This document shows, piece after piece, positions 2,370 through 19,705 of a stretch of DNA of 34,516 nucleotides. The notes under the pieces are model-generated. The model did not search any database and was not told the DNA's origin. It saw only the letters and a program-made list of their open reading frames with translations. A program made the translations under genes and the position numbers. The DNA comes from a virus: positions 1 through 34,516 of the IMG/VR virus record IMGVR_UViG_3300042378_000172; one strand, written 5' to 3'. Each line of letters starts with the position of its first letter. Positions within the stretch are counted from its first letter, which is position 1.

Positions 2370-3029
2370 TTATAACACATTCCATATGTTTGGATCGACA
2401 TAGGCTAATTGTTTTGCTGGCGTAATGTCGTAAGCAATAGTTATCCTTGGTTTTTCTTCAAACCAATCATCTCTCCCGTGAGGATGTCCTGTTTCTGAAA
2501 TAATTGCTCTATTATTTTTATTAATATTTTCAAATATATTATTTTCATCTCTATCTATTTTATAAAAAGTTGATGAAGGTTCTGCGTTTACGCAGTAATA
2601 TCCATGAAACCATGGCACTCCTTGCCCATCTGAATGATCATGAAAATGGCTTGGATTTTGTTTTGGATTTACTCCTCCAAACGCATAAAATTTATCTACT
2701 GGAGATTCATCTAAATTAAACCATCCATGAATAAAATATTGTTCTTTTTCAAAGTTAATTTCATAATATTCGCATGCAGTCTTTGTCAATTCTCTTAACG
2801 CTAACTGTAAATTATAAATTTCTGGATTAACAAAAGAAAAAATATTATAGTCTTTTACGCCTATCCTAGTCATGGCCCCTGGCAAAATTTTGAATTCTGC
2901 TAACTTTTCTTCTTTTAAATTTAAAACATTTTCTTTTAAAATTTTACTGTCCATCGTTATTAAAAAATCATAAAGTTTTTGCAAGTCATTTTCTAAAAAA
3001 ACATCAAAAAACTTATGTGGTTTTTTCAT
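2370..3029 (-). CDS. 2OG-Fe(II) oxygenase-like protein, paralogue 2 of a tandem triplet
   Basis: This protein has 219 residues. The start is set at ATG 3029 because it overlaps the upstream stop as ATGA; a longer frame from GTG 3056 exists but is less likely. Motifs: HDH (130-132), WFHGYYCVNAEPSST, SETGHPH (178-184, distal H184) and PRITIAYD with R195. It is closest to the gene just upstream, sharing the WFHGYY, NAEPSST and GHPH blocks. The overlap predicts translational coupling. It resembles the phage 2OG-FeII_Oxy_5-type group. Substrate unknown. Confidence 0.77.
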   Translation of the reverse strand: MKKPHKFFDVFLENDLQKLYDFLITMDSKILKENVLNLKEEKLAEFKILPGAMTRIGVKDYNIFSFVNPEIYNLQLALRELTKTACEYYEINFEKEQYFIHGWFNLDESPVDKFYAFGGVNPKQNPSHFHDHSDGQGVPWFHGYYCVNAEPSSTFYKIDRDENNIFENINKNNRAIISETGHPHGRDDWFEEKPRITIAYDITPAKQLAYVDPNIWNVL

Positions 3030-3670
3030 GCTAGTGGAATCCAATGTTGCTCCCACTCGTGCATTATTCCTCTAAATGGAATTACGTCGTAAGCAATTGT
3101 AATTCTTGGTCCATTCCAATCCCAATCACCCATAGCGTGTGGATGTCCTGTTTCAGATAAAATAGCACGATTGTTTTTATTTTCAATTGTTTCGTTTTTG
3201 TCAAATACTTTGTAGTGTGTTGATGAGGGTTCTGCGTTTACAGAGTAATAACCGTGAAACCATGGAGCGCCTTCTCCGCCGTGCTCATGCCAATCTAACT
3301 TTCCACCATGAGTATAGTTTACATTAAACCATCCTTGAACCCAAAAATTTTCTTTTTCAAAATCAATTTTATAGTATTCACACGCTTCAATAGTCATAGA
3401 CCTAACTGACTTAAAAAGATTATGAATTGCTGGATGATAAAATTGAAAAACGTTGTATTTATTCCATTTAGAAGTAGTTATGCTACCTGATGAGTCCCAG
3501 GCGGTTTTTTGATCATCGTCATTTTTTAATATTTGTCCAGATTCTATTCTTTCATATTGTTGCAGAAGGTAAGAAGATAGATCTTGAGTGTCGTTATTTA
3601 AATTTCTTTCAAAAAAACTATGAGGTATGCTACTTTTGCTTGTATTTTGAACGTTATTATTTTCGTACAT
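3026..3670 (-). CDS. 2OG-Fe(II) oxygenase-like protein, paralogue 1 of a tandem triplet
   Basis: This 214-residue protein is the first gene of the triplet. Putative iron ligands are H128 and H130 (or E129) in WHEH and H178 in GHPH; R189 in PRITIAYD would hold 2-oxoglutarate. The N-terminal 60 residues are low in conservation and hydrophilic. AAGGGAAG precedes the ATG, and a TGATACAAT extended -10 lies about 35 nt upstream, so the three oxygenase genes probably form one transcript. The gene follows the tail-fibre module, which raises the possibility that virion proteins are its substrate; that is inference. Confidence 0.77.
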   Translation of the reverse strand: MYENNNVQNTSKSSIPHSFFERNLNNDTQDLSSYLLQQYERIESGQILKNDDDQKTAWDSSGSITTSKWNKYNVFQFYHPAIHNLFKSVRSMTIEACEYYKIDFEKENFWVQGWFNVNYTHGGKLDWHEHGGEGAPWFHGYYSVNAEPSSTHYKVFDKNETIENKNNRAILSETGHPHAMGDWDWNGPRITIAYDVIPFRGIMHEWEQHWIPLA

Positions 3671-3747: not shown

Positions 3748-4461
3748 TTATCTAAATGGTGGGGAGAAACCAAATGGTGTGAATCCGAATGCTCCGAATG
3801 GAGTGAATCCAAAGGCTCCAAATGGGGTGAATCCAAATGCTCCAAATGGTGCAAAACTAAAAGTAGTTGTTACGCTTGAAGATGCTGCAGATGTTAGAGA
3901 GTTTCCGTTGGCGTTTGTAGCATAAACAGTATAAGTTTGTGCTGTTCCTGCTTCTTGACCCACAGTAACAGATGTTCCTGCCTCTGATCCTGTCTTGCCA
4001 TCGCTAGATGCCCAAGTATAACCAGTTATTGCAGAACCTCCATCTGCTGGTGCTGACCAAGAAACAACATCTTGGTTAGCATTTGGAGATGAAGCACTTG
4101 GTGCTGCGGGTGTTGCTGGTACAGTTGTTGCAGTAATAGATGCAGATGCTGATGATGCCAATGAATTTCCGCTTGCATTTGTTGCTACGACCCGAAATGT
4201 ATAAGCCGTGTTTGATTGCAAACCAGTTACAGATAGTGGAGAAGATGCTCCTGATGCAGTATATGATCCAGGAGTGGATGTTACTGTATAAGAAGTAGCA
4301 GCAGGTGAGTTTGCTGGTAAAGAAAATGTTACATCAGCCCGTCCATTATTAAATGCCCGTCCAGTTCCAACGTTTGTTGCGCTTACTGACGTTGGTGCTA
4401 ATGGCTCCAAAAAGTCATTTGACGCTTGGGACTTTCTACCTGATTTCTTACCTGCTGCCAT
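3748..4461 (-). CDS. Double fibronectin-III tail protein with Phe-Gly-rich C-terminal repeats
   Basis: This protein has 237 residues: a basic N-terminus (AAGKKSGRKSQ), then two FN3-type beta-sandwich domains (about 22-113 and 115-200) with the usual TSYTVTSTPG and NTAYTFRVVATNASG strands. The last ~37 residues are three to four copies of an eight-residue F-T-P-F-G-A-F-G unit ending FSPPFR. The same tail ends the PASTA protein at 13121. FN3 domains are common accessory binding domains on phage tails. TTAGGAG precedes the ATG. It lies immediately downstream of the Mtd-type fibre gene, so it probably assembles with or caps that fibre. Confidence 0.75.
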   Translation of the reverse strand: MAAGKKSGRKSQASNDFLEPLAPTSVSATNVGTGRAFNNGRADVTFSLPANSPAATSYTVTSTPGSYTASGASSPLSVTGLQSNTAYTFRVVATNASGNSLASSASASITATTVPATPAAPSASSPNANQDVVSWSAPADGGSAITGYTWASSDGKTGSEAGTSVTVGQEAGTAQTYTVYATNANGNSLTSAASSSVTTTFSFAPFGAFGFTPFGAFGFTPFGAFGFTPFGFSPPFR

Positions 4462-4492
4462 AATAGTCTCCTAATTTATTGTTAAATTTGTA

Positions 4493-5920
4493 CTACGCTG
4501 TTAAATCGCCGAACACTACCCAAGAGTTTTCTGCTCTCTTGAATAAGGTTGCAGAAGACCACCGTGTACGTAATTTAAAGCCTGGTGTTGCGTTAACGGT
4601 AACTCCGCCAGCGCCTGCAATTGTTACTTGTCCTGTATTAGTTTGCAAAATATCCAGAGTGGTTCCGACTGGGAAAGCAACTGATGAGTTTGTTGGAATT
4701 GTAATAGTTGTTGCTGATTCTGAACTTACTTCAATTAAAGAATCTCTTTCAGATGTTGCTGTAAGTTCGTATGAAGCAGTCTTAGAAATAATTGGTGTCC
4801 GTGAAGGAACGCCTTCCTTAGTCTGAGTTCCGTCTGTATAAGCAATACCATTTGCTGCAACAGTTACAAGACCTGTAAATGTAGGTGAAGAAAGTGGTGC
4901 CTTTAATGCAATTGCATTTGCAGTTGTTGCTGCGAAGTTTGCGTCATCACCAAGTGCTGCAGCAAGTTCATCAAGAGTGTTTAGAAGTTCTGGGGCTGAT
5001 GTTGTTAATATAGCAATTTCTTGCTGCACAAATGCTGTAGTAGCAATCTGTGTTGTATTAGTTGCTGTATTTGCAGTAGGTGCTGTTGGAGTACCAGTAA
5101 GTGCTGCTGAAGCCAACGGAGCATATGTACTTGATGCATCTGCTGAAGCAAGTTTTGCTGAAAGATCAGATGTAAGGTTTGCAACCTTTGATTGATCAAT
5201 TGCTGCTTCTGAATTAATATCAGAGTTTACAATTGTATTGGCAGCAATCTTTGCAGATGTTACTGCGCTGTCTAGAATCTTTGCAGATGTTACTGCATCG
5301 TCTGCAATCTTTCCAGTTGTTACTGCGCTAGAAGCAATTTTTCCTTCAGTTACAGATGCGTCTGTTGGAGTTCTTGAATCAGTTAATCTTGCATCATTTG
5401 TATAAACTAATGCTGCGGTGTTTGAAATTCCGTGAGCACTTAGAGTTAAATTGGCGTGAGTTGTTAAATTGTTTGAAAGTGTTGACAACTCGCTAGTTGT
5501 ATTTGCTTGACCTGTAGCAACGGTGTTGGCTAATGTATTGGCTACAGTTCTTATGTCAACATCTGCTGTTTCTAAAGCACCTAAACGAGTATTTACGTTA
5601 GAAAAAGTATTTGTTACATATGCTGAATAACTCGCATCGTCTCCAATTGCTGCGGCTAATTCATTTAATGTGTTTAATGTTCCTGGAGCGCCATCTATAA
5701 GATTTGATACTGCTGTATCAACTAATCCCTGAACTTCTGATGAGTCAAAAACTATAGATGCATCTACGAAGTATGCTAGGCTGGTCCAAGCAGTTGAGCC
5801 ATTTCCTAATTTAAATTTATTTGTGTCGGTTTCAAAACCAATTTCACCTGCTGCTAGTGTTGGGTTTGCTGCAGTCCATTGTGCTGCAGTTCCTCTGCGC
5901 TGTTGCATTCTTGTTGCCAT
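4493..5920 (-). CDS. Long tail fibre / receptor-binding protein with Mtd-type N-terminus
   Basis: This protein has 475 residues. Residues 1-52 (MQQRRGTAAQWTAANP, then AAGEIGFETDTNKFKLGNG) match the N-terminal fold of the major tropism determinant found on many phage fibres. The middle is low-complexity fibre sequence with alternating Thr/Ala/Ser, LNTLNELAAAIGDDA repeats (again near 310-330) and a TSAKI repeat. The C-terminal ~70 residues (SVAFPVG to GDLTA) are a near copy of the C-terminus of the gene at 13456. AGAGGAG is the ribosome binding site, and TATAAT about 30 nt upstream marks a separate promoter. Confidence 0.82.
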   Translation of the reverse strand: MATRMQQRRGTAAQWTAANPTLAAGEIGFETDTNKFKLGNGSTAWTSLAYFVDASIVFDSSEVQGLVDTAVSNLIDGAPGTLNTLNELAAAIGDDASYSAYVTNTFSNVNTRLGALETADVDIRTVANTLANTVATGQANTTSELSTLSNNLTTHANLTLSAHGISNTAALVYTNDARLTDSRTPTDASVTEGKIASSAVTTGKIADDAVTSAKILDSAVTSAKIAANTIVNSDINSEAAIDQSKVANLTSDLSAKLASADASSTYAPLASAALTGTPTAPTANTATNTTQIATTAFVQQEIAILTTSAPELLNTLDELAAALGDDANFAATTANAIALKAPLSSPTFTGLVTVAANGIAYTDGTQTKEGVPSRTPIISKTASYELTATSERDSLIEVSSESATTITIPTNSSVAFPVGTTLDILQTNTGQVTIAGAGGVTVNATPGFKLRTRWSSATLFKRAENSWVVFGDLTA

Positions 5921-5963
5921 TTATTTCTCCTCTTGGGGTTGGTATAATTATAACAGATTTATT

Positions 5964-6419
5964 TTAATTAAAATTATCTGTTGCACTTCCGCCATCATAA
6001 GTTAACGTCCAAGATGATGTTGATGGGCTGCCTGCATCTTGTGGTGTACCTTGTGGAGCATTATAAAATCCACTAGATACAAATTGGCTTACTATGAATC
6101 CAGTTCCATCAATTGATGTATCATGAATATGATCTGGAAGTGTTTGTGTATCATCAATAGATGCTTGGGTTATCCAAGATCCGTTGTAGTATACATTAAC
6201 TCTAGAGGTTAAGGAATCAAACCACATATCTCCATTGCTTGGAGATGCTGGTGCGGTATTTCCTACGGTCATTCCTGATGCTAAAGCATCAACATAATCT
6301 TTTGTTGTAGCGTGTGATCCTAAAGTAGGAGTGGCAACTGTTACCGTACCGCCAAAAGTGGCGCCATTTGTAACGGCAAGACCATTTTTTATTTTAAAGT
6401 CTTTATTGACAGTTGCCAT
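5964..6419 (-). CDS. Short tail-fibre-like structural protein
   Basis: This protein has 151 residues. Its N-terminus (MATVNKDFKIKNGLAV) is a paralogue of the N-terminus of the next gene upstream (MATVVKNFKVKNGLIV), which points to a shared attachment segment. The section SPSNGDMWFDSLTSRVNVYYNGSW is the small beta motif common in phage fibres. A Gly/Ser/Thr-rich end follows. Ribosome binding site AAAAGGGAG. No catalytic motif seen. Probably virion associated. Confidence 0.68.
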   Translation of the reverse strand: MATVNKDFKIKNGLAVTNGATFGGTVTVATPTLGSHATTKDYVDALASGMTVGNTAPASPSNGDMWFDSLTSRVNVYYNGSWITQASIDDTQTLPDHIHDTSIDGTGFIVSQFVSSGFYNAPQGTPQDAGSPSTSSWTLTYDGGSATDNFN

Positions 6420-6451
6420 TTATTTCTCCCTTTTAATTGTTTTTGTTTTTA

Positions 6452-7654
6452 TTAGACAAGCACTGTTCCAACAACTGAGATAACTGATGTGTTATTTGCT
6501 GTTGTAACTAGAACTCGAACATCGTTACCAGAAACATCTGCTGTGACTGTTCCTAAGGCACCATTTGTTCCTACGATTGCGTACTCAGTAATTGCTACGT
6601 TATCTGCTGTATCAAGTGTTAGAATCAACTTTGAAACCTCTGTATGAGATCCATTAGCAATCTTAACCAAGAATTCACCAGATCGGTAAGCAGACTTAGC
6701 CCATGAATAAACTACGTTTGCTGCGCTTGCTGTAGCAATGCTTGCAGTTGCTGCAACATTCTTAGCAAGTGTGTTTAATGCAACCGCTGTAAAGTTCGGA
6801 GTTACTGCTTCAAGAGCAGATACTGCACGAGCATTTGAGAAGTATAGATTTGAAGAACCTTCTGTTAGGTCATCAGTATCAGAATCTGCTACACCGTTTT
6901 CTGCGGAAATAGTAAGTCCTGCACCTGTACCTGAAATTGTAATGTTTGTAAGAGTTGCACCAGTTAAAAGATCTGCTGTTGCAGCCTTAGCACGTGCATT
7001 TGAGAAGTAAAGGTTTGTACCTTCAGATACATCGTCTGTGTCAAGGCTAGTTACAGAAATTGTATTTCCTGTAATATCAATGTTTGACCCTGCAGTTAAA
7101 GTGTTTTGCTTTAATGCAACTGAGTTAGTAAGTGTTGTTGCAAAGTTAGCATCGTCACCAATCGCTGCTGCCAACTCATTAAGAGTATCAAGCAATGCTG
7201 GGGCTGAATCTACAAGTGATGCTATAGCATTATCTGTATATTGTCCTGCATATGTAATAGCATTTGTATATGCTGTGTTTGCTGCTGATGCTGCGGTACC
7301 TGCTGCATCGTATGATGCTGCTGTTGCTGCTTGGGCACGAGCATTTGAAAAGTAAAGATTTGTGGTTCCTTCTGCAAGATCGTTGGTATCAAAGTTAGAA
7401 ATATCTGATACTGTACCTGTGACGTCACCAATTAAGTCTGCTGTAATTACGTTTGCAGCAAAGTTTTTGTTTGCATCACGAAGAACAATAGCGTTTGCTA
7501 CTGAACTTGAATTTGCTACTCCGCCAACTAAACCTTGAATGTAGGTTTGGTCTCCTGCTGATTTTGTTAAAATATCAAAATTGTTTACTGTTGCGGTTGC
7601 ACCTTCAACAATTAAACCATTTTTTACTTTAAAGTTTTTTACTACGGTTGCCAT
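6452..7654 (-). CDS. Tail fibre protein with LYFSNARA repeats
   Basis: This protein has 400 residues. A short attachment-like N-terminus is followed by four TxxLYFSNARA repeats (about 96-105, 206-213 and 276-283 are clearest), each after a D-D-L/V-x-E-G segment, plus one LLDTLNELAAAIGDDA block shared with the fibre at 4493. The last ~90 residues (about 310-400) are a beta domain also seen at the end of the protein at 7669 (EYAIVGTNGALGTV compared with EYGTIDTNGNIGTV). This architecture is typical of trimeric phage fibres. AAGGAG precedes the ATG. Confidence 0.75.
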   Translation of the reverse strand: MATVVKNFKVKNGLIVEGATATVNNFDILTKSAGDQTYIQGLVGGVANSSSVANAIVLRDANKNFAANVITADLIGDVTGTVSDISNFDTNDLAEGTTNLYFSNARAQAATAASYDAAGTAASAANTAYTNAITYAGQYTDNAIASLVDSAPALLDTLNELAAAIGDDANFATTLTNSVALKQNTLTAGSNIDITGNTISVTSLDTDDVSEGTNLYFSNARAKAATADLLTGATLTNITISGTGAGLTISAENGVADSDTDDLTEGSSNLYFSNARAVSALEAVTPNFTAVALNTLAKNVAATASIATASAANVVYSWAKSAYRSGEFLVKIANGSHTEVSKLILTLDTADNVAITEYAIVGTNGALGTVTADVSGNDVRVLVTTANNTSVISVVGTVLV

Positions 7655-7668
7655 TTTTTATCTCCTTG

Positions 7669-8115
7669 TTAGGCCTTTAATCCTATACGTGCATAACGTA
7701 CAGTGATTGGGGTTATTCCTTCAACAGGGGTTACAGTAATTGATACTGTAGTTCCTGCTTTAGAGACGCTAACGGTTCCAATATTCCCATTTGTGTCAAT
7801 AGTTCCATATTCGCTGACATTTACATCTGTACCGTCAACTAATATTGTCATCTCTGTGGCGAAGTATTTGTTATCACCAGCAGAAGTCTTTGCGATGGAG
7901 ATGATATATTTAACCATTCTCCATTCAGTGGAAAGAAAACTGTCAATTACTGTAGCGCTTTCAATTCCATAAATTGTTGAATCATTATTACCTGCAGATC
8001 CAATCGAAGTGGCTTGAGAAGCCGTTGTGTCAATAAGTTTCTCGTAATCAGTCTGTGTGGGACGATCACCAGTTTGAAATAATCCTTTTAAAGTTCCGAT
8101 AGTTATGATTGCCAT
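7669..8115 (-). CDS. Tail-associated beta-domain protein
   Basis: This protein has 148 residues. The N-terminus (TLKGLFQTGDRPTQTDYEKLID) is a short segment often found at the start of phage baseplate or fibre proteins. The C-terminal half, from IDSFLSTEWRMVKYIISI onward, is the same beta domain as the C-terminus of the 6452 fibre. It heads the 8115-to-3748 fibre gene run. Its ATG has no Shine-Dalgarno but a TATAAT exactly 6 nt upstream, so a leaderless mRNA is likely. Confidence 0.62.
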   Translation of the reverse strand: MAIITIGTLKGLFQTGDRPTQTDYEKLIDTTASQATSIGSAGNNDSTIYGIESATVIDSFLSTEWRMVKYIISIAKTSAGDNKYFATEMTILVDGTDVNVSEYGTIDTNGNIGTVSVSKAGTTVSITVTPVEGITPITVRYARIGLKA

Positions 8116-8121
8116 GGCTTT

Positions 8122-8127
8122 ATTATA
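8122..8127 (-). promoter_or_regulatory. Leaderless promoter -10 for the 8115 gene
   Basis: TGT-TATAAT is followed by AAAGCC and then ATG, so transcription would begin at the start codon. No clear -35 is visible, which fits an extended -10 promoter. Confidence 0.6.
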
Positions 8128-8138
8128 ACATTAATTTA

Positions 8139-8702
8139 TTACAGTTTTTCAATCCAAACTTGATAGCCTTTTTGTAAAATTTTTATTCTTAGTTCATTGT
8201 TTTTTAAAAATTTATCAATACCGTTCAAAGGTTTTAAATCAACGTTCTTGCTTGGGTGTTCCCATAAATAATCATCAAATGCTAAGATACCACCAGATTT
8301 TAAAAGCGGGAATGCTAAAACTGCATCACTATAAACCCCTTCTGCTGAATGGTCTCCATCAATATATATAAAGTCAAATTCTTCGTCACAATTAGACAGG
8401 TAGTCTTTGCTATCTTTTTTAACTTTTTTAGCATTAGAAAATTGATTAATTTTTTCATCATAGATTGACTCAATTTCGTTCCAGTCAAATTCTTGATGAA
8501 TCTTTTCTTTTGAACCTTTCCACGTATCTATGTCTGTAAGGCTTGATGTTTTTTCTGTTAATATATTTTTTAGTAGCCATTCAGAGCCATGGCCAAGGTA
8601 TACCCCAATTTGTAAAAAATTAACATTTGGAAGGTTTTTATATTTGTTTAGAAATTTTTCAAATGTTGGAATGTTGTTGTGAAACCAATTAGGATATTGC
8701 AT
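8139..8702 (-). CDS. Class I SAM-dependent methyltransferase (Methyltransf_24-like)
   Basis: This protein has 187 residues. FLQIGVYLGHGSEWL (29-43) is the SAM-binding glycine loop. DFIYIDGDHSAEGVYSD (110-126) is the acidic motif of the Methyltransf_24/cephalosporin-hydroxylase-like branch, and LLKSGGILAFDDY (133-145) is the post-motif strand. Its start overlaps the upstream GT25 gene by 14 nt, and that gene in turn overlaps a second glycosyltransferase. The three probably act on one substrate, such as a glycan that is methylated after sugar transfer. The acceptor is not known. Confidence 0.78.
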   Translation of the reverse strand: MQYPNWFHNNIPTFEKFLNKYKNLPNVNFLQIGVYLGHGSEWLLKNILTEKTSSLTDIDTWKGSKEKIHQEFDWNEIESIYDEKINQFSNAKKVKKDSKDYLSNCDEEFDFIYIDGDHSAEGVYSDAVLAFPLLKSGGILAFDDYLWEHPSKNVDLKPLNGIDKFLKNNELRIKILQKGYQVWIEKL

Positions 8703-9426
8703 ATTGTTCCCAATAAGATATCACATCTTTTCTTGATTTGTAATGTATCCCCTCTGGATTTTCTTTATCTTCTTTAGTATTATTAGGAGCAGTAATTGAT
8801 GTTTCAAAATCTACAGAATAGGTAAACAATGGTTTTGAATAACACTTTGCGTCTGCATAAATAATAAAATCTGCTAAGGCTGTATAATTTTTAGGTAACA
8901 CATATTTATCATCAACAAAGTATTTATCGATTAACTGTTTTGCTCTTTGCCTTGTAATCAAATAACATGCTGCTGACCAATCTCTGTGTTCTTTAATGTG
9001 CAAAGAAGTATTAACATTGAAATTATGAATTATACAAAATTGTAATATATCGTATTTCTTTTTTATTGAATCCACAAAATCTTTAAATGTAAAATTCCAA
9101 TACTTTACAGTTTCAAAACTTAAATCATCTTCAATTATAATTGCATACTCAGAGTCAGAAGTATCAAACCATTCTTTTATTGTATTTAAATGTGAAACTG
9201 TTGCTCCTAACTCTGAATTAGATAAAGACAAAGAATCTCTTTCAAATACTAAATTTGACCAGTCTGCGGTTTCTCCATGGGTAGCCTCTATAATTTTATA
9301 ATTTAAAAGATTGTTTTCTTTTAATTGCCCCTCTATATAATTTAATCTATCTGTTCTTGATTTTAAATTAATAACGTATATTGGGCCGAAGCCATCTAAT
9401 TTATTTAAACCAGTATGTTCCAACAT
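8689..9426 (-). CDS. Glycosyltransferase family 25 (LPS/collagen galactosyltransferase type)
   Basis: This protein has 245 residues. IYVINLKSRTDR (16-27) is the GT25 start motif. SNSELGATVSHLNTIKEW (69-86) is the family E-x-G-x-x-x-S-H block, and IIEDD (97-101) carries the metal-binding acidic pair. The family contains bacterial LPS galactosyltransferases and animal collagen hydroxylysine galactosyltransferases. The gene overlaps both neighbours (26 nt with the GT-A gene, 14 nt with the methyltransferase), so the three are co-translated. The acceptor could be host surface glycan or a virion protein, and a collagen-like fibre is encoded 6 kb away. Confidence 0.84.
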   Translation of the reverse strand: MLEHTGLNKLDGFGPIYVINLKSRTDRLNYIEGQLKENNLLNYKIIEATHGETADWSNLVFERDSLSLSNSELGATVSHLNTIKEWFDTSDSEYAIIIEDDLSFETVKYWNFTFKDFVDSIKKKYDILQFCIIHNFNVNTSLHIKEHRDWSAACYLITRQRAKQLIDKYFVDDKYVLPKNYTALADFIIYADAKCYSKPLFTYSVDFETSITAPNNTKEDKENPEGIHYKSRKDVISYWEQYAIS

Positions 9427-10114
9427 GCTCCACCTTTACATAAGGGGCAAGATAAACTTTGCCACCGTTTTCTTTCCAAAGTTTACAGAAATAATAATCT
9501 TCAGATAAAAGCCTTTCGTTGTCCTCATCTATAATTGCTTGCCAAAAATCATAAATAGGATCTCCAAATTTAATGTTTCCTATTTGAGTTTGATCACAGC
9601 GATATTGTTTAACATTTTTTTTAATTGTTTCAAAAACATTTCTAGAAATTAACATTAAGCCAGTTCCTATATAATCAACCTCTACTAAAAGGTTTGGGTT
9701 TTCTTTTAATTTTACCTTTTGATCTGGGCTTATGTTTACGTTATAAATTGCTGTGTGTTTTTCTAAATCTGGTTGGTCGTTTTTTGCTGCTGTTCTAACT
9801 CTCTCCCAATTAATTCCTTTCATTGGGACGGGGGCTGCAACCAAATCTACTCCCTCATTAATCATTTTTAAAACACCTAAAGAATCAAAACCTTCATCCG
9901 CATCAATAAACAACAAGTAATCACCGTTTGTTCTTAAAAAAGTTTCTGTTAATACGTTTCTGGCTCTTGTAATTAAAGACTCATTTGCAATGTCTATAAA
10001 GTTTGCTGAATGCCCAGCGTCTGACAAGGTTTTTATTAACACTAACATACTTTTCATGTATACCCCAGTACACATTCCACCATACATCGGGGTTGCAATT
10101 GTAATATGTGCCAT
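9401..10114 (-). CDS. GT-A fold (family 2-like) glycosyltransferase
   Basis: This protein has 237 residues. An N-terminal HITIATPMYGG strand is followed by ESLITRARN (45-53), and YLLFIDADEGFD (66-77) holds the D-x-D metal and nucleotide-sugar motif. VDLVAAPVPMKG and the C-terminal EDYYFCKLWKENGG are typical of phage and cyanobacterial GT-A enzymes. AGGAAG is the ribosome binding site. It is the first of a three-gene glycan cassette. No transmembrane segment, so it should be cytoplasmic. Sugar and acceptor are not predictable from sequence. Confidence 0.82.
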   Translation of the reverse strand: MAHITIATPMYGGMCTGVYMKSMLVLIKTLSDAGHSANFIDIANESLITRARNVLTETFLRTNGDYLLFIDADEGFDSLGVLKMINEGVDLVAAPVPMKGINWERVRTAAKNDQPDLEKHTAIYNVNISPDQKVKLKENPNLLVEVDYIGTGLMLISRNVFETIKKNVKQYRCDQTQIGNIKFGDPIYDFWQAIIDEDNERLLSEDYYFCKLWKENGGKVYLAPYVKVEHVGTYWFK

Positions 10115-10125
10115 ACACTTCCTAT

Positions 10126-10326
10126 CTATAATATGTAGTTACTGTATCCGATTACTTGCAGTGGAATTGGAGGTGGGTTCCCTGCCCCAAATCCTTCAAC
10201 GCCAATGCTTGTAAAACGAACTCTAAAAGGTAATACTTCATTTATTAAAACAATGCTTGGATAATTTGCTAACTTTATTTTTTTTGTTTTTACAGGTGTT
10301 TTGTTTTTTAATACTGCAGTGGACAT
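10126..10326 (-). CDS. Small virion-associated hypothetical protein
   Basis: This protein has 66 residues with a basic N-terminus (LKNKTPVKTKKIKL) and a beta-rich, Gly/Pro-rich C-terminus (GFGAGNPPPIPLQV). Its ATG shares a base with the stop of the upstream RGDT-domain gene (TAATG), so translation is coupled. Family not recognised. The position suggests a minor tail component. Confidence 0.55.
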   Translation of the reverse strand: MSTAVLKNKTPVKTKKIKLANYPSIVLINEVLPFRVRFTSIGVEGFGAGNPPPIPLQVIGYSNYIL

Positions 10327-10736
10327 TAGTCTGTGACATCCTCAAGGACAACTAAACTTCCTTGAGCGACAGTCCAAACTTGAACATTTCCTGCAGAAGA
10401 CAACTGTATATCAAAAATATCTCCAGTTCTCAAGGATACTGATTCTGCTGCCGTTAAGGAAACAGTAAACTCACCTGGCAAGTCATCTGCATCACGAATT
10501 GGTGTTAATGCCATAATTGTTACAGCATCATCTGTAATTTTTCCTAAATTTGCAGAAAGGTTTGGGCGTTTGATCTTCATTGCAATCGTCCAATCTGCAA
10601 TAGTTAATGGATTTTTTGCATCATCAGTGACATAAACTTTAAATGCTGAGGTGTCTCCCTTTACAAAAGTCCAAACCACTGTTGGTGGTTTTTCTCCAAC
10701 ATCATATTCTTTAGTTCTGCTTCTTGTTGTTGCCAT
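10326..10736 (-). CDS. BppU-like N-terminal domain baseplate/tail protein
   Basis: This protein has 136 residues. The pattern VVWTFVKGDTSAFKVYVTDD, a WTIAMKIKR strand, a GEFTVSLTAAES segment and DIFDIQLSS ending in VLEDVTD is the Ig-like fold seen at the N-terminus of lactococcal-type baseplate upper proteins. Two paralogues occur at 15146 and 16434, each with a K/R-GDT near the start. It probably docks fibres to the tail. Expression is from a leaderless promoter 6 nt upstream. Confidence 0.68.
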   Translation of the reverse strand: MATTRSRTKEYDVGEKPPTVVWTFVKGDTSAFKVYVTDDAKNPLTIADWTIAMKIKRPNLSANLGKITDDAVTIMALTPIRDADDLPGEFTVSLTAAESVSLRTGDIFDIQLSSAGNVQVWTVAQGSLVVLEDVTD

Positions 10737-10742
10737 GATTTA

Positions 10743-10748
10743 ATTATA
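10743..10748 (-). promoter_or_regulatory. Leaderless promoter -10 for the 10736 gene
   Basis: TGT-TATAAT, six bases (TAAATC), then ATG. It is the same arrangement as at 8122 and 16818. No Shine-Dalgarno is present. Confidence 0.6.
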
Positions 10749-10752
10749 ACAC

Positions 10753-11283
10753 TTAAAGTCCGTTTTTAACAGCACCCCAGGTGGCATTTCCTCCTTTGAT
10801 TGGCGAAACTAATATTTTTCCACTTGTTGCATGTGCATATGCAACTACAGCAATGACGGAAGACCCAGATGATGGCTTAGTAGTAGTTAACCCACCAGAT
10901 GCACCTACGTAAAGTTTATCTCCCTCATCATATGCGGACGTATTAACATCTTCTAATAATCCAACAGTAACTACGATTCCATCGTTTGCATTTTGCATTG
11001 TAGCCTTGGCCAAACCAATGCATGGGAAGGTGCTAATATTACTTGCTTGAGATTTTGCAATAGTAGTCCTACTGTTTGCATATCCTGTTATATATACGGG
11101 AGTTCCTTTTGTTATTTCTGCCCCGCTAACATTTCTTACGTCTAAAGATAGGTATGGAACCTGCAGCGCAGTTAATAAATCATTAACTTTTTCTGCCAGT
11201 TCCTGCATATCAGAGTGAACATTAACAGGATCATCTGATAAGGGATATGGTATTTCTTGGGGATTAGTTAAACCGGTAGCCAT
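10753..11283 (-). CDS. Phage structural protein with decoration/tail-spike-like beta domain
   Basis: This protein has 176 residues. An N-terminal helix (SDMQELAEKVNDLLTALQ, 24-41) precedes a beta domain, with YLSLDVRNVSGAEITKGTPV, FPCIGLAKATMQNANDGIVVTVG, YDEGDKLYVGASGGLT and VVAYAHATSGKILV. This resembles the beta-barrel found in many phage head-decoration (DUF2190-like) and fibre proteins. TATAAT lies 8 nt before the ATG with no Shine-Dalgarno, so the leader would be 0-2 nt. It diverges from the lytic enzyme gene on the plus strand. Confidence 0.6.
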   Translation of the reverse strand: MATGLTNPQEIPYPLSDDPVNVHSDMQELAEKVNDLLTALQVPYLSLDVRNVSGAEITKGTPVYITGYANSRTTIAKSQASNISTFPCIGLAKATMQNANDGIVVTVGLLEDVNTSAYDEGDKLYVGASGGLTTTKPSSGSSVIAVVAYAHATSGKILVSPIKGGNATWGAVKNGL

Positions 11284-11316
11284 GATTTTACATTATACCA
11301 TTAAAAATATACCTAC

Positions 11317-11346
11317 TTGACTTTTGATTGCTTCTTTTGCTATAAT
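11317..11346 (+). promoter_or_regulatory. Sigma-70-like promoter of the lytic transglycosylase gene
   Basis: TTGACT (11317-11322), an 18-bp spacer and TATAAT (11341-11346). The predicted start near 11353 coincides with the first base of the hairpin at 11353-11374. Confidence 0.78.
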
Positions 11347-11352
11347 TAATGT

Positions 11353-11374
11353 ATTGACACCGAAAGGTGTCAAT
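11353..11374 (+). other. 5'-terminal GAAA-tetraloop hairpin in the mRNA leader
   Basis: A perfect 9-bp stem, ATTGACACC with GGTGTCAAT, closed by a GAAA (GNRA) tetraloop. It starts at the predicted transcription start, and the AGGAGG ribosome binding site lies 9 nt downstream. Hairpins at the extreme 5' end are known to stabilise mRNA; a protein-binding role is also possible. Confidence 0.7.
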
Positions 11375-11395
11375 TTGTTTCTAGGAGGTATTACC

Positions 11396-11938
11396 TTGAA
11401 AGAAAATATAGCAGTTTTTTGTTTGGCGGTTTTATTAGTAGTTTCTACTGTTTTTAATGCTAGCAATGCTCAAGCAATAAAACATCAAGAAATGATAAAA
11501 AATATATCTATACCCAAGTTATTAAAAAAATCGGATCATATGAAAGTTCTTGAAAAATATAGCGAGGCTGAATCTTTAAATCAAAAACAGTGTAAGGAGT
11601 TGCTATCTGCAATTGGGTTTGAGGGCAAGGCGTTAAAAATGGCTTGGACTGTAGCGCAAAAAGAGTCAAATTGTAGACCAAAGGCCATAAACAACAATAC
11701 AAAAACTGGAGATCACTCCTTTGGCATATTTCAAATCAATATGATTGGTGATCTTGGAGAGGCAAGGCTAGAAAAGTTTAATTTAGAGTTTAAGAAAGAA
11801 CTTTTAGATCCTGTAACTAATGCGAGAATTGCTTATCATATGAGTAAACAAGGCAAGGATTGGTCATCCTGGACATATTTAGACGGGGAAAGATTTAAAG
11901 AGTTGTGGTTAGAGTTTCCTGATTCTAAAAGTAAGTAA
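11396..11938 (+). CDS. Secreted lytic transglycosylase / lysozyme-like cell-wall hydrolase
   Basis: This protein has 180 residues. The start is TTG 11396 because AGGAGG lies 7 nt upstream and the protein then opens with a proper signal peptide (MKENIAVF, hydrophobic to residue ~20, cleavage likely after SNA or AQA near 25-27). The SLT-type core is MAWTVAQKESNC (82-93) with catalytic E90, SFGIFQIN (108-115) and NARIAYHMS (142-150), ending in WSSWTY. It would cleave the glycan strand outside the membrane during lysis or entry. It is the only plus-strand gene in the structural module and has its own promoter. Confidence 0.82.
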   Translation: MKENIAVFCLAVLLVVSTVFNASNAQAIKHQEMIKNISIPKLLKKSDHMKVLEKYSEAESLNQKQCKELLSAIGFEGKALKMAWTVAQKESNCRPKAINNNTKTGDHSFGIFQINMIGDLGEARLEKFNLEFKKELLDPVTNARIAYHMSKQGKDWSSWTYLDGERFKELWLEFPDSKSK

Positions 11939-12539
11939 CTGCAACATACTTAGTTCCAGAGGTTACTGGTAAGTGTTTATGTTTATATTCTTCAGTAGAA
12001 GGATAAATTAACACTCCCCCTTTAGTAATTTTAGTTGTATCATTACCTACTCTGTTTTCAAATTGAACCTCTCCCCCCACATAATTATCATTTAAAAAAA
12101 CAATAACTGTATAATTATTTTGTATTTCATTTCTGCTCATGTCAGAGTAAAAATTATCGCTATTTAAGTTTTCACAAATAGACCATTTTTTTATTTCTGT
12201 AATCTCTAATTCAAATCTATGCATATAGTCAACAATGAATGGCAAAATATTTTCGTTTAATAAATTTCTTAATTTACCTTTTTCTTTTCCTCCATTATCA
12301 AAAATATTATTATTGGATTTACGCCACCAATCAAATAAATTGTCAAAGTTAGGTAAATAAAAAATTTTATTGTTTAAAGTTAAATCAGTGTCTTGATTAT
12401 TTTTGTTGGAAGACAACTCCCAAACATTTCTATTTATTGTTTTGTTACACAGATTTTCTATCAACGATACGTAATCTGTTTCCTTGTTTTCATAATACAA
12501 AACAATTTTATCGTCTAATGCTGTTATGTTATTTACCAA
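11925..12539 (-). CDS. Prolyl-4-hydroxylase-like (P4Hc) 2OG oxygenase with altered iron site
   Basis: This protein has 204 residues. The C-terminal half follows the P4Hc plan: YTVIVFLNDNYVGGEVQF (143-160), GGVLIYPS (174-181), then H187/H189 and PVTSGTKYVAVTYF (191-204). The usual proximal H-x-D is Y-S-D here (131-133, codon TAC where CAC would restore His). The 2OG-binding Arg is Lys197, a common conservative change. It may be a low-activity or non-catalytic member unless another residue supplies the ligand. It overlaps the lytic enzyme convergently by 14 nt and the Hint-like gene by 7 nt. Confidence 0.7.
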   Translation of the reverse strand: MVNNITALDDKIVLYYENKETDYVSLIENLCNKTINRNVWELSSNKNNQDTDLTLNNKIFYLPNFDNLFDWWRKSNNNIFDNGGKEKGKLRNLLNENILPFIVDYMHRFELEITEIKKWSICENLNSDNFYSDMSRNEIQNNYTVIVFLNDNYVGGEVQFENRVGNDTTKITKGGVLIYPSTEEYKHKHLPVTSGTKYVAVTYF

Positions 12540-13111
12540 GAAGAATCGCCTCCAGCAAATAAAATAAAGTTTTCTGTAAAATAAAAATGTCCGCCCACGA
12601 TATTTATTGAAACCGAATCACTTTCTAACAACTCTTCTGTACTATCAAAATCTTGATAATCAAATATTGTGAAATCTTCCAAATCAAGTGTTGAAAAATC
12701 TTTTTTTAATTTTACAATTTTTATATTAGTTAAACCTTTAATATGTGGAACAGTCCAAGATTTATAAAAATCTAAAATTGGAGGATTCTCTTTTGAAAAA
12801 ACTCGTTCTTCTGACATTGCTGTTGCAATGTATTGCCCATGATGAACAAATTGATTTCCCATTTTTACAAATTTTCCTCTAGATTCTTTGTCTAGATAAA
12901 CTGAGTATACAGTTGCTTCGCTTAATTGAAAATTGTCTACTTGTTTGTTTTCTTTAATATATTTTTCATAAAAATCTATAGAGTCTTTTATGTCTTCATC
13001 TAAAATTTTTAAAGAAAGAACTTTATCTCCAACTTTTAAATCTTCAGCGTTCACTAAAGTTTTATTAGATAAATAAATTTTTTCACTAAGTGGAATTGCT
13101 CCTAAAAACAT
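12533..13111 (-). CDS. Hint/intein-fold-like protein without obvious splicing residues
   Basis: This protein has 192 residues. Near the N-terminus, KIYLSNKTLVNAEDLKVGDKV followed by LSLKI (11-36) resembles the opening of Hint domains (a strand, then x-I-x-D-L-x-V-G-D-x-V). The C-terminus, GGHFYFTENFILFAGGD (173-189), resembles the closing block (G-x-H-x-Y-x-x-x-N-x-I-L). The N-terminal nucleophile Cys/Ser and C-terminal His-Asn are not evident. It may therefore be a structural Hint-like domain of a virion protein. It is located between the PASTA protein and the P4H-like gene. Moderate certainty only. Confidence 0.5.
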   Translation of the reverse strand: MFLGAIPLSEKIYLSNKTLVNAEDLKVGDKVLSLKILDEDIKDSIDFYEKYIKENKQVDNFQLSEATVYSVYLDKESRGKFVKMGNQFVHHGQYIATAMSEERVFSKENPPILDFYKSWTVPHIKGLTNIKIVKLKKDFSTLDLEDFTIFDYQDFDSTEELLESDSVSINIVGGHFYFTENFILFAGGDSSW

Positions 13112-13120
13112 TTTTATATC

Positions 13121-13456
13121 CTATCTAAATGGTGGAGAAAAAATAAATACTGGGGCAAATGAAAATACAGGAGTAAATCCAAATGGGGTAAATCCAAACG
13201 CTCCAAATGGGGTAAATGAAAAAACATTGTTTACTAAGTTTACAGTAGTCCCTAAGGCTGCTGAATCTCCTGCTGCAATGCTTTGAGTTTTGATAATATT
13301 ATTTAGTGCGTTATCTGTTGTATTTTCGTTTGTTGTTACAAAGTTAAATCCTGCATTTGATAGATTTGATTCTGCCGTTGACTTTGACAAACCAACTACA
13401 TTTGGAATTGTGTTCCTTCTAAATATTTTATTTCCACGTCCAGGGTTTTTTGCCAT
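13121..13456 (-). CDS. PASTA-domain tail protein with Phe-Gly-rich C-terminal repeats
   Basis: This protein has 111 residues. The start is ATG 13456, which overlaps the upstream TAA (TAATG); a longer frame to 13486 is less likely. One PASTA domain (17-77: IPNVVGLSKSTAESNLSNAG, then TQSIAAGDSAALGTTVNLV) precedes a tail FSFTPFGAFGFTPFGFTP and an FSPPFR end. The tail is shared with the FN3 protein at 3748. PASTA domains bind peptidoglycan or muropeptides, so the protein may place a cell-wall-binding module on the tail. Both FG-tailed genes follow a fibre gene ending GDLTA. Confidence 0.78.
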   Translation of the reverse strand: MAKNPGRGNKIFRRNTIPNVVGLSKSTAESNLSNAGFNFVTTNENTTDNALNNIIKTQSIAAGDSAALGTTVNLVNNVFSFTPFGAFGFTPFGFTPVFSFAPVFIFSPPFR

Positions 13457-14076
13457 TATGCAGTCAAATCTCCCATTGCTAACCAAGTGTTTGTATCACG
13501 CTTGATTAATGTTGCACTAGACCATTGTGTTCTTAATTTTAATCCAGGAGTTGAATTTACAGTGACTCCCCCTGCTCCAACTAAAGTTACTTGAGAAGAA
13601 CCAGTCTGAAGTATATCTATAGCGGTTCCAATTGGAAAGGCCACTGAACTGTTTAGTGGAATAGTTAAATTTCCACCAGAAGACATTTCAATCATTTTAA
13701 AAGAGTCTGAAATAGTTAATGTATAAGAAGATGATTGCTGATTAAATGTATATACTGGATCTGTTATAGACTGCCAAACGGATCCATCAAAAAATTGAAA
13801 ATCGTTAATTGTGTTTCCGACAGAGTCTTGCTTTATAAAAATTAAAGTTCCATATACTGGAGATGGAATTGCAGTTGTAACTGCAGATGGATTTAAAAAT
13901 ATATTAAAGTTTTTAGATATAGTCGTAGATGATAAAGTAACTGGATTATCAAATGTTTGTGCTGCTGTCCAAGTGTATGCTGAAGCGGTATTTACATCTC
14001 CCGCAATTCTATACCATTGATTAGTTCCCTCATCATAAACATATGCTGGTCTTGCAGTAGAATTAATGGCTGCCAT
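13456..14076 (-). CDS. Tail fibre protein, C-terminus paralogous to the 4493 fibre
   Basis: This protein has 206 residues. The N-terminus (RPAYVYDEGTNQWYRIAG) is a fibre motif shared in style with the gene upstream. From about residue 135, SVAFPIGTAIDILQT to RDTNTWLAMGDLTA, it copies the C-terminus of the protein at 4493-5920. The ATG overlaps the preceding TAA (TAATG), and its own TAA overlaps the ATG of the PASTA gene, so it is tightly coupled on both sides. Confidence 0.74.
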   Translation of the reverse strand: MAAINSTARPAYVYDEGTNQWYRIAGDVNTASAYTWTAAQTFDNPVTLSSTTISKNFNIFLNPSAVTTAIPSPVYGTLIFIKQDSVGNTINDFQFFDGSVWQSITDPVYTFNQQSSSYTLTISDSFKMIEMSSGGNLTIPLNSSVAFPIGTAIDILQTGSSQVTLVGAGGVTVNSTPGLKLRTQWSSATLIKRDTNTWLAMGDLTA

Positions 14077-14519
14077 TAGTTCACCCTAATAAATGCGCTA
14101 GTGTTAGAATCATATACATACATTTCTAGAGGAGATGTTGTTTTCTTAACCCAAATTAATCCATCTACAAGGTTTGCTGTTGGTGTTGCATTTTGATAAA
14201 TAGATGTTGCCGATGCTGGATAACCACTTGCTAGAGCATTTGACTGTACCCATAAAAATCCGTCTACAGGAGATGTTGGCTCTGCGTCTTGAACCTCTGC
14301 TGCTGCTGCTGGGTTTAATAAATTATCATCAATTTGTGTTTGTAAATCATGAAGAGAATATGCTAAAGATGGATTTGTTAATAAGGATGTATTTGTATTG
14401 TTAACATCGTATGATTCAGATCCGTAATGATATAGCCTTAATGCTGCCTGAATGTCTGCAGAATCATCATAACCAGGAATTTTGGTTGGATATACGTTAC
14501 CAATATTTTCAGAAGCCAT
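14076..14519 (-). CDS. Tail-fibre-like structural protein with VDGxxWV repeats
   Basis: This protein has 147 residues. A helical N-terminal half (IQAALRLYHYG, then SLAYSLHDLQTQIDDNLLNP) is followed by two copies of a PxxxLVDGxxWV motif (SPVDGFLWVQ and NLVDGLIWVK) and a MYVYDSNTSAFIRV end, a common fibre shaft/attachment pattern. AAAGGTGG precedes the ATG, and TATAAT lies upstream, so this promoter can drive the fibre/PASTA genes. Confidence 0.66.
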   Translation of the reverse strand: MASENIGNVYPTKIPGYDDSADIQAALRLYHYGSESYDVNNTNTSLLTNPSLAYSLHDLQTQIDDNLLNPAAAAEVQDAEPTSPVDGFLWVQSNALASGYPASATSIYQNATPTANLVDGLIWVKKTTSPLEMYVYDSNTSAFIRVN

Positions 14520-19099: not shown

Positions 19100-19705
19100 T
19101 TAATATTGAAGATTAACGTTAATTACACATCTTAAATTGGTTTTAGTTGGCGCAGATACAGCGTGAAAATGTTTTCCATCCATAAGAATTGCTGCTCCTC
19201 TTTTAGGGGTTATTTTTTTCATTAATGTTAGGTCTTTATATTCAAATTTTTTAGATAACTCTGCTTTTTCGTTAAAAACAAAAGTATCTCCATCTGAGTC
19301 GTTAACGTAGTATAAAAAAACATAATGATCATTCATATCATCTACATGCGGATACATATGGCTATTATAGTCTGATCTTAGAGTCATATTAAATTTCATT
19401 CTTATTACCTTAGAGTATTCAATTTTATGTTTTTTACAAAACTTATCTATTAAGGACATAAATATTGGACTTACTTTATGACTATATCCCATGCCTTCAG
19501 TATTTCCTATTTGCAAACAAGAAAAATATGCGACATCTTTGACTGGAAAATCAACCATAGAGTTTCCCTCTTCAAATTTATATTCGTATCCAGGATCTGA
19601 TTGAGTTCCAGGAAAATATGTCCAAGACTTTTCAGGGCTAAAATAATTTTTATCTATTTCTATTATTTCTTCTTCTGTTAAAAAGTTATCGTCATATATA
19701 AACAT
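19100..19705 (-). CDS. 2OG-Fe(II) oxygenase, prolyl-4-hydroxylase type
   Basis: This protein has 201 residues with a complete set of expected residues: H120-V-D122 in MYPHVDDMNDH, YVFLYYVNDSDGDTFVF (128-144), RGAAILMDGKHFHAV with distal H181, and R192 in NLRCVINVNL. It is the best-conserved 2OG enzyme of the window and should hydroxylate a protein or small molecule. Its ATG overlaps the TAA of a tiny TM gene (TAATG), placing it last in a five-gene minus-strand operon starting at 20280. Confidence 0.84.
   Translation of the reverse strand: MFIYDDNFLTEEEIIEIDKNYFSPEKSWTYFPGTQSDPGYEYKFEEGNSMVDFPVKDVAYFSCLQIGNTEGMGYSHKVSPIFMSLIDKFCKKHKIEYSKVIRMKFNMTLRSDYNSHMYPHVDDMNDHYVFLYYVNDSDGDTFVFNEKAELSKKFEYKDLTLMKKITPKRGAAILMDGKHFHAVSAPTKTNLRCVINVNLQY

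Follow-up and report, generated by a model that had tools for sequence, protein, structure and literature searches.

The window, the whole 34,516-nt stretch of viral DNA analysed here, carries two cassettes in which a fibre gene is followed by a small gene whose product ends in a Phe/Pro-rich tail. In relatives, the N-terminal binding modules of these small proteins are, as judged from sequence, exchanged on a common connector, and the tail often runs into a C-terminal Hint domain with a conserved nucleophile. Our preferred reading, held tentatively and with a little less than even confidence, is that the small proteins are exchangeable fibre-tip adhesins, that a transient Hint cap would be removed to expose the aromatic tail, and that the window phage encodes the apparent mature form. 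Apart from database labels, this arrangement of fibre and tip gene, with a tail leading into Hint in relatives, seems to be undescribed.

Results

Two cassettes of a fibre and a putative tip protein in the window

The window consists of one metagenomic contig, from a freshwater phage; many freshwater viruses share its type of tail, and the actinobacterial marker WhiB occurs in at least some of them.

An earlier note had proposed a duplicated cassette of a fibre and a small protein. Its four open reading frames, all on the minus strand and at the same coordinates (Table 1), together with the Pfam domains, the tail match and the shared fibre PHROGs, bore this out. The fibre of cassette A carried Mtd_N at its N-terminus (Pfam, 1.2e-15), matched tail fibre PHROGs and matched our GDL profile at 1.1e-53, a profile built partly from this same fibre. 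Fibre B was about 46% identical to minor tail proteins of Gordonia phages over their C-terminal part. The last ~100 residues of both fibres matched phrog_8780 and phrog_21978, indicating that the two ends are one domain, of which GDLTA forms the C-terminal end.

Table 1. Features of the two cassettes and their neighbours in the window
Feature	Position	Strand	Description
Fibre gene, cassette A	4493..5920	-	475 aa; Mtd_N N-terminus, GDL-type C-terminal domain about 4496-4792
Putative tip protein A	3748..4461	-	237 aa; basic N-arm, two FN3 domains, tail about 3751-3864
Probable 2OG-oxygenase-like gene	3026..3670	-	after tip protein A; by motif only
Probable 2OG-oxygenase-like gene	2370..3056	-	same family as 3026-3670; by motif
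147-aa protein	14076..14519	-	immediately precedes fibre B; gene order kept in relatives of the PASTA locus (L083-L091)
Fibre gene, cassette B	13456..14076	-	206 aa; GDL-type C-terminal domain about 13459-13749
Putative tip protein B	13121..13456	-	111 aa; basic N-arm, PASTA domain, tail about 13124-13222
Stand-alone protein of predicted Hint fold	12533..13111	-	192 aa; Pro at Cys1 position, without terminal His-Asn
2OG-Fe(II) oxygenase, PKHD-type hydroxylase-like	11925..12539	-	next gene after stand-alone Hint

In tip protein A, two stretches matched fn3 (1.4e-10, 41.6 bits against a gathering score of 25), and PASTA was detected in tip protein B (3e-11, 43.6 bits against 23.2; both Pfam). 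The ATG of the PASTA gene overlaps the stop codon of fibre B (TAATG). Neither tip protein has a Hint domain, and relatives with one exist for both (for the PASTA protein, L084, L086, L089, L090 and L091). The two tails were 63% identical to each other over residues 184-237 (E 9.3e-9). Contrary to the claim that the small proteins differ only in their binding part, tail length and pattern differ too. The tails resemble FG nucleoporins in being disordered, uncharged and made of Phe-rich repeats, but their contents of Phe (37%) and Pro (28%) are far higher, and the likeness is drawn as an analogy. Differences between repeat units were mostly synonymous (pS 0.65, pN 0.31), so the repeats do not reflect recent slippage. 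No paper on the tail motifs was found in the literature searched, and tblastn of FN3-tail and FN3-tail-Hint proteins against GenBank phages gave no match.

Linkage and module exchange among relatives

Among non-redundant relatives, a GDL-type fibre lay directly upstream of 125/146 FN3-tail genes and all 12 of the 12 PASTA-tail genes with room upstream; the tails were thus not found mainly away from GDLTA-type fibres, the situation that the earlier note had named as counting against its reading. Across the fetched loci, which are redundant, the corresponding figures were 183/233 tail-protein genes and 109/3360 other genes, so the linkage exceeds chance. The N-terminal arms, too, are shared. On the Hint tree, the N-terminal module changed 11 times in all at the fewest, and supported branches forced at least nine changes between FN3 and the rest and at least four involving PASTA, which upholds the proposal of domain swapping on a common connector.

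The earlier interpretation was thus partly supported, but it was incomplete on the tail. In both window copies the stop codon directly follows FSPPFR, whereas many relatives continue beyond the tail: in 119 of the FN3- and PASTA-tail proteins detected, it forms a disordered linker that leads to a Hint domain at the C-terminus. The window tails end at the site where Cys1 stands in relatives (FGFSPPFR and stop, against FGFSPPR followed directly by CIEENT in L112), and those of L004, L083 and L099 likewise stop where the Hint of relatives starts. A large group of Hint-less homologues has a Cys-rich stretch at the end instead. As for FG-type chemistry, AFGAFG does occur, but FFPPFFP, HFPPHFPP, YSFTPY and FFAPPG occupy the same place, and the tails of relatives are far more varied than FG. 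On a quick FN3 tree, Hint-less forms were scattered (17 changes for 18 rows), with clustering not above that of shuffled labels. Paralogues of one contig carried the same Hint class in the contigs, which were listed by hand.

The C-terminal Hint domain of relatives

Profile A1, built from the Hint domains of relatives, gave as its best PDB match the BIL domain 2lwy (1.8e-10), and many inteins matched too. Pfam detected Intein_splicing in 15/23 members and Hint_2 in 8/23, mostly below curated cut-offs; the Hint assignment is therefore based on profiles and folds. The AlphaFold2 model of a fused relative showed confident FN3 and Hint domains joined by a linker with pLDDT <50; in Foldseek searches with this model, FN3 chains filled the list, which was uninformative on Hint.

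The domains formed two clades. In the Cys1 clade (n=60), Cys occupied position 1 in 59 members and 54 ended in HN, as a rule without a +1 Cys, Ser or Thr; the residue after HN was Lys at the stop in 37/60 and Ser in a few. Block B held Gln in 39/60 and His in 15/60. In the Ser1 clade (n=40), 35 members had Ser at position 1, 36 the block-B His and 35 a terminal Asp. The conservation of Cys1 and Ser1 points to selection on the nucleophile. By its sequence, the Cys1 clade, with terminal His-Asn and no +1 Cys, Ser or Thr, falls among type A BILs; the Ser1 clade was not so classified because it ends in Asp rather than His-Asn. An assignment as class 1 intein was rejected, as the Hint sits at the protein end, typically as HNK-stop, with no C-extein to splice and, as a rule, no +1 Cys, Ser or Thr. 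An initial view of the Ser1 clade as dead, lacking Cys1 and HN, was dropped when alignment at position 1 revealed Ser1 and a terminal Asp. The acyl shift ordinarily depends on the block-B His (PMC7765530), so many domains of the Cys1 clade may react slowly or only once triggered.

A PDB profile search with the small Ser1-clade alignment returned nothing significant, and Hint queries against GenBank phages retrieved only distant jumbo-phage Hints. The sole match in a profile search of genome contigs was one unrelated Hint in a MAG, which gives no prophage or host link. The literature found on phage Hint domains concerned inteins lodged in genes such as those for terminase and ribonucleotide reductase.

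A stand-alone Hint gene and further neighbours

The cassette reaches further downstream, where it takes in the stand-alone Hint gene as well as genes resembling 2OG oxygenases. The AlphaFold2 model of the 12533-13111 product (mean pLDDT 75) matched Hint, intein, BIL or Hedgehog chains in all 50 of the 50 Foldseek PDB matches listed; in VIA-align, Z reached 14.3 (rmsd 2.6 across 141 residues), with Hint-fold chains only among the matches listed. The protein also matched the fused-Hint profile (7.4e-8) and, by hhalign, both Hint clades (6.8e-6 and 9.6e-8). The model thus predicts a Hint fold. With its C-terminus GHFYFTENFILFAGG and the residues in Table 1, the protein is probably catalytically inactive; its L099 homologue has Ser at position 1. 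It belongs to a different Hint family, which also occurs downstream of PASTA-tail-Hint genes in relatives. Over the window, the Hint profile matched this gene and nothing else, and a PDB profile search with the stand-alone Hint alignment gave nothing significant.

The 11925-12539 product matched PF13640 (Pfam, 3.8e-8) and the PKHD-type hydroxylase 3dkq (PDB, 0.00098). The 3026-3670 product had no match in Pfam or PDB; a profile built from it and 2370-3056 also detected 1761-2369 (1.6e-45). Homologues of the 147-aa protein, recognised by eye, carry an aromatic tail in L229, L242 and L316, the last also a Hint.

Discussion

In the reading that we prefer, each cassette would encode a tail fibre and, separately, a fibre-tip adhesin composed of a short, often basic N-arm, an exchangeable module for binding the envelope (a pair of FN3 domains, a PASTA domain, or others in relatives) and a disordered, uncharged Phe/Pro/Gly tail. 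In many relatives, the tail leads into a BIL-like Hint that is predicted to detach itself, via Cys1 or Ser1, by cutting at the junction between the two. Until assembly, the Hint cap would keep the aromatic tail in soluble form; it would then leave and expose a tail that, by analogy, may be cohesive or adhesive. Both window tip genes stop at the junction and would make the presumed mature form directly, while an apparently dead stand-alone Hint persists beside the PASTA copy. The conserved order of fibre and tip gene, the BIL match, the conserved nucleophiles, the disordered linker, the stops at the junction, the scattered Hint-less forms and the paralogues of one Hint class argue for this model; the terminal Asp of the Ser1 clade in place of Asn and the mostly Gln block B of the Cys1 clade argue against it. 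A cap is not generally required, since many homologues, including those of the window, lack Hint. Phages are known to place a tip or chaperone gene after a fibre gene, and to have C-terminal caps that remove themselves by autoproteolysis (PMC10579305). Those chaperones or caps, C-terminal or separate, are likewise removed from a receptor-binding protein and adjoin the fibre, but are Ser-type autoproteolytic chaperones of another fold and chemistry.

Other systems share parts of the arrangement. Like type A BILs (2lwy), the Hint of relatives combines the fold, Cys1, a terminal His-Asn without +1 Cys, Ser or Thr, and variable flanking protein. It differs in forming the extreme C-terminal end of phage tip proteins, where it follows a disordered aromatic linker, in often having only Lys after His-Asn, in a block B that is often Gln, and in a sister clade with Ser1 and terminal Asp; moreover, the tail proteins of the window have no Hint. 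Tail or structural proteins of jumbo phages (NCTB BN7874_136, Erwinia Alexandravirus gp105, Yersinia fHe-Yen9-02 333c) also end in a Hint with Cys1 and HN, and NCTB has an adjoining stand-alone Hint gene, but their N-part is collagen-like, they lack the aromatic tail and identity in the Hint is only ~25-28%. Three proteins of uncultured phages in UniProt (A0A6J5MFV5, A0A6J5NYB8, A0A6J5NY54) have a Hint fold and, as far as names and lengths tell, fit FN3/PASTA-tail-Hint proteins; the labels, 'Fibronectin type III' or 'PASTA_pknB domain containing protein', cover the N-terminal module only.

The tail itself could instead be the connector, self-associating or plugging into the fibre end, with the Hint functionally irrelevant. 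This would suit the position of the tail-protein gene after a GDL-type fibre gene, the similarity of the tails of both cassettes and their maintenance at the protein level. We nevertheless consider it unlikely: tail chemistry varies widely on the same type of fibre end, which is odd for a specific plug, the shared N-terminal arms could be the docking part, and the conserved nucleophile argues against an idle Hint. Quite unlikely, in our estimate, is a conjugation like that of Hedgehog or BILs, in which the Hint would form a (thio)ester at the tail end and hand the tail to an amine, thiol or hydroxyl of the fibre, of another tip protein or of the host envelope, leaving the adhesin covalently attached. 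Plain hydrolysis explains the nearly invariant Cys1 or Ser1 equally, no acceptor is known and neither tail of the window phage has a Hint, even though the missing +1 nucleophile recalls type A BILs, for which ligation by aminolysis is possible (PMC4031507), and the Cys-rich ends might give Hint-less homologues a different means of fixing the tail. The Hedgehog autoprocessing domain (1at0) is likewise a C-terminal Hint that processes an N-terminal binding or signalling module, and the stand-alone protein of the window matches it at Z 13.7, but no sterol-recognition region or known acceptor is seen here. We regard as improbable a full phage counterpart of Hedgehog processing, in which the Hint, in Cys1/Asn and Ser1/Asp versions, would activate the C-terminal end of the aromatic adhesive tail and join it covalently to the fibre, the host envelope or a partnering tip protein, with Cys-rich ends as alternative fixation.

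Frequent loss or exchange of the Hint, and the non-catalytic stand-alone copy in the window, would also fit an intein-like hitchhiker, domesticated or in decay, that does nothing for the adhesin. Two old clades each keeping its own conserved catalytic set, domains of only about 160-200 aa without a homing endonuclease region, and C-terminal Hints of the same type in tail proteins of unrelated jumbo phages make this improbable as well. An assembly or frameshift artefact, by which tip genes truly fused to a Hint would have lost it through sequencing error, might come to mind for a single metagenomic contig with a Hint gene directly downstream of the PASTA copy. It is hardly credible: the same stops recur in other contigs (L003; L004/L083; L099), the downstream gene is of a different Hint family that also follows PASTA-tail-Hint genes, and the window holds no further Hint match.

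If the adhesins do mature by Hint chemistry, intein- and BIL-type domains would have a physiological job in processing a receptor-binding tip, one tied to an aromatic disordered tail common to many freshwater viruses. Hint-bearing, Hint-less and Cys-rich homologues together form a natural experiment on the purpose of the Hint. For annotation, proteins so far labelled only 'fibronectin type III' or 'PASTA' could become recognisable as one exchangeable family of putative tip proteins.

Cassette organization of the fibre region

The source sequence was a 34.5-kb IMG/VR virus record. The earlier note's claim that it holds two fibre plus small-protein cassettes, A (FN3) and B (PASTA), was borne out by the ORFs, the domains, the Phe/Pro/Gly-rich tails of the small proteins and a common fibre-end domain. 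The C-terminal ends of both fibres form this one domain ("GDL-type" fibres), which is also terminal in several PHROG tail families and in Gordonia phage minor tail proteins. In cassette B, the ATG of the PASTA gene overlaps the fibre stop codon.

Other features were observed around the cassettes. Immediately upstream of fibre B, a 147-aa protein is encoded whose seeming homologues in three related loci carry their own aromatic tail, accompanied in L316 by an intein-like Hint domain. The enzymes encoded between the cassettes may perhaps play a role in virion or receptor glycosylation.

Coordinates of features in the window and in related loci
Feature	Location	Strand	Description
Fibre, cassette A	4493-5920	-	475 aa, Mtd_N N-terminus
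Small protein, cassette A	3748-4461	-	After fibre; 237 aa, two FN3 domains, tail FSFAPFGAFGFTPFGAFGFTPFGAFGFTPFGFSPPFR
Fibre, cassette B	13456-14076	-	206 aa
Small protein, cassette B	13121-13456	-	After fibre; 111 aa, PASTA, tail FSFTPFGAFGFTPFGFTPVFSFAPVFIFSPPFR
Stand-alone Hint gene	12533-13111		Starts 9 bases past PASTA-tail stop
Upstream of fibre B	14076-14519		147 aa
Seeming homologues of 14076-14519	L229 7021-9195; L242 9728-11542; L316 3566-6481		Aromatic tail
Between cassettes	8139-10114		Methyltransferase, family 25 glycosyltransferase, weak Anp1-like glycosyltransferase
SLT-type lysozyme/transglycosylase	11324-11938	+	Opposite strand, within fibre region
2OG-oxygenase-like	11925-12539		PKHD-type
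2OG-oxygenase-like	3026-3670; 2370-3056; 1761-2369; 19100-19705
Glutathione-peroxidase-like domain	20337-21125		N-terminus of 262-aa protein
Gordonia phage Wizard gp36	L386 5343-5939		198-aa minor tail protein, basic start
Gordonia phage Ohgeesy gp29	L387 5339-5935		198-aa minor tail protein, basic start

The aromatic tail as a linker into a Hint domain

An IMG/VR scan with the FN3 protein gave 509 matching stretches, of which the best matches were kept as 80 loci, making the sampling non-random. By the time of counting, further scans with the PASTA protein, the stand-alone Hint gene, the new C-terminal domain and two tail DNA patterns had expanded the set to at least 385 sequences. The results showed that in many relatives the tail continues into an extra ~150-200 residues, starting like CIxEDTLI or SIGADTLI and often ending VHNK-stop; the tail is thus often a linker into a C-terminal domain. 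Unique FN3-tail proteins comprised at least 109 with this domain, at least 58 without and at least 36 without but with a Cys-rich end, and unique PASTA-tail proteins at least 10 with and at least 3 without. Similar tails also followed other N-terminal modules: a single FN3 domain, three FN3 domains, FN3 combined with a Gly-rich domain, and xDGSxWK or KVNGVWK repeats. Tail chemistries included FGFTP, FGFSPFGVFG, FFPPFFPFFP, HFPPHFPP, YSFTPY and FFAPPG; pooled tails were 37% Phe and 28% Pro, with charge almost absent. The Cys-rich ends (L046, L051, L058, L078, L284, L344, L356, L357 and L382; example SGCSGCVRSYCWQACPACCGGCGC) were almost confined to FFPP-type tails (39/40 unique proteins).

The profile of the extra domain matched a solved bacterial intein-like domain (1.8e-10) and many inteins. 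In an AlphaFold2 model of an FN3-FN3-tail-Hint relative (L032), the FN3 domains and the Hint were confident, and linker residues 209-270 had pLDDT <50. Homology of the domain to Hints is almost certain, and we hold the FN3/PASTA-tail-Hint architecture with equally high confidence.

A tree of 100 Hints contained two main clades. Clade 1 carried Cys1 in 59/60 and His-Asn in 54/60, with Gln (39), His (15) or Glu (6) at block B, while clade 2 carried Ser1 in 35/40, block-B His in 36/40 and a terminal Asp in 35/40. Key intein residues are Cys1/Ser1, the block-B His and the terminal His-Asn, and type A BILs possess His-Asn and lack the +1 nucleophile (PMC7765530, PMC4031507). Clade 1 resembles inteins and type A BILs in Cys1 and His-Asn and mostly has Gln at block B. 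These counts and the reviewed residue roles show that the Hint nucleophile is under selection. The candidate chemistry may be either hydrolysis or aminolysis, and Gln at block B may influence its speed.

Immediately before their stop codons, the two tails in the window read FGFSPPFR and FIFSPPFR, with like stops in other contigs (L003, L004/L083, L099); tail/Hint junctions in relatives read FGFSPPR/CIEENT (L112) and FSFTPPN/CIDENT (L084). By sequence, the window small proteins look like the processed form.

The stand-alone Hint gene had no significant Pfam match. Its AlphaFold2 model (mean pLDDT 75) matched Hint-fold chains in all 50 PDB matches listed, and VIA-align gave Z up to 14.3 with rmsd 2.6 over 141 residues. 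Position 1 is Pro, and the terminal His-Asn is absent. We rejected the reading that it is a domain broken off a tail protein, because L084, L086, L089 and L090 encode it in addition to a PASTA-tail-Hint protein; it is therefore a separate conserved gene. A comparable arrangement occurs in another family: in jumbo phage NCTB, a stand-alone Hint gene follows the gene of a collagen-like tail protein that ends in a Hint.

Module exchange, gene neighbourhood and host

Parsimony required at least 28 changes of C-terminal state on a quick FN3 tree. The Hint tree showed 11 changes of N-terminal module, and both ends are thus exchangeable modules. The 18 Hint-less rows required 17 changes on the quick FN3 tree, a value as low in 374/500 label shuffles, so they did not cluster above shuffled labels. 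In all of ~20 contigs with two classable tail proteins (Cys1-Hint, Ser1-Hint or no Hint), listed by hand and some closely related, both were of the same class, against ~36% expected under independence. Some of this agreement is due to duplication or gene conversion within genomes; L007 and L089, on one contig, carry sister Hints.

A GDL-type fibre was the upstream neighbour of 125/146 FN3 and 12/12 PASTA non-redundant tail proteins with room upstream; across all fetched loci it directly preceded 183/233 tail genes versus 109/3360 other genes. Matches to two oxygenase-like profiles (one, og2, being a motif assignment only) lay no more than 5 kb downstream of the tail gene in 118/142 cases, compared with 1/93 for the same distance upstream. 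Such enzymes could conceivably hydroxylate the Pro-rich tail; for three of the window genes, the assignment comes solely from a motif or from a profile built in this analysis. The actinobacterial marker WhiB was above cut-off in 8/12 relatives and absent from the window, which is a fragment; contractile sheath protein was found in 0/12 relatives. These are likely non-contractile phages infecting freshwater Actinobacteria.

A proposed mechanism and its wider context

Phages commonly place a small tip-protein or chaperone gene after the fibre gene. A chaperone cap provides one example (PMC10579305). In cultured Gordonia phages, Wizard gp36 and Ohgeesy gp29 fill the equivalent slot directly after a GDL-type fibre and are a possible cultured model for it. 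In the FN3 and PASTA tail proteins, the first 20 residues had a mean net charge of +1.8 and +4.5, respectively. The small protein would probably be located at the tip of the fibre, where its N-terminal arm may hold it, and the FN3 or PASTA module would bind the cell envelope. Self-cleavage of the Hint through Cys1/Ser1 chemistry is predicted with slightly less assurance. That the Hint serves as a transient cap is a tentative proposal, and a contribution of the aromatic tail to cohesion or adhesion is equally speculative.

The Hint fold is present in structure models for proteins of uncultured phages whose names mention nothing beyond "Fibronectin type III" or "PASTA_pknB domain containing protein". 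We found no published description of FN3/PASTA-aromatic tail-Hint proteins in a literature search outside which most subscription journals lay, so novelty is provisional: Hint autoprocessing and exchangeable phage adhesins are already known, and their combination appears new. In GenBank jumbo phages, C-terminal Hints likewise occur on tail or structural proteins: Phage NCTB (L145), Erwinia phage pEa_SNUABM_35 (L146) and Yersinia phage fHe-Yen9-02 (L388) have collagen-like tail/structural proteins with a terminal Cys1/HN Hint. Phage tail proteins ending in a Hint are thus a wider theme.
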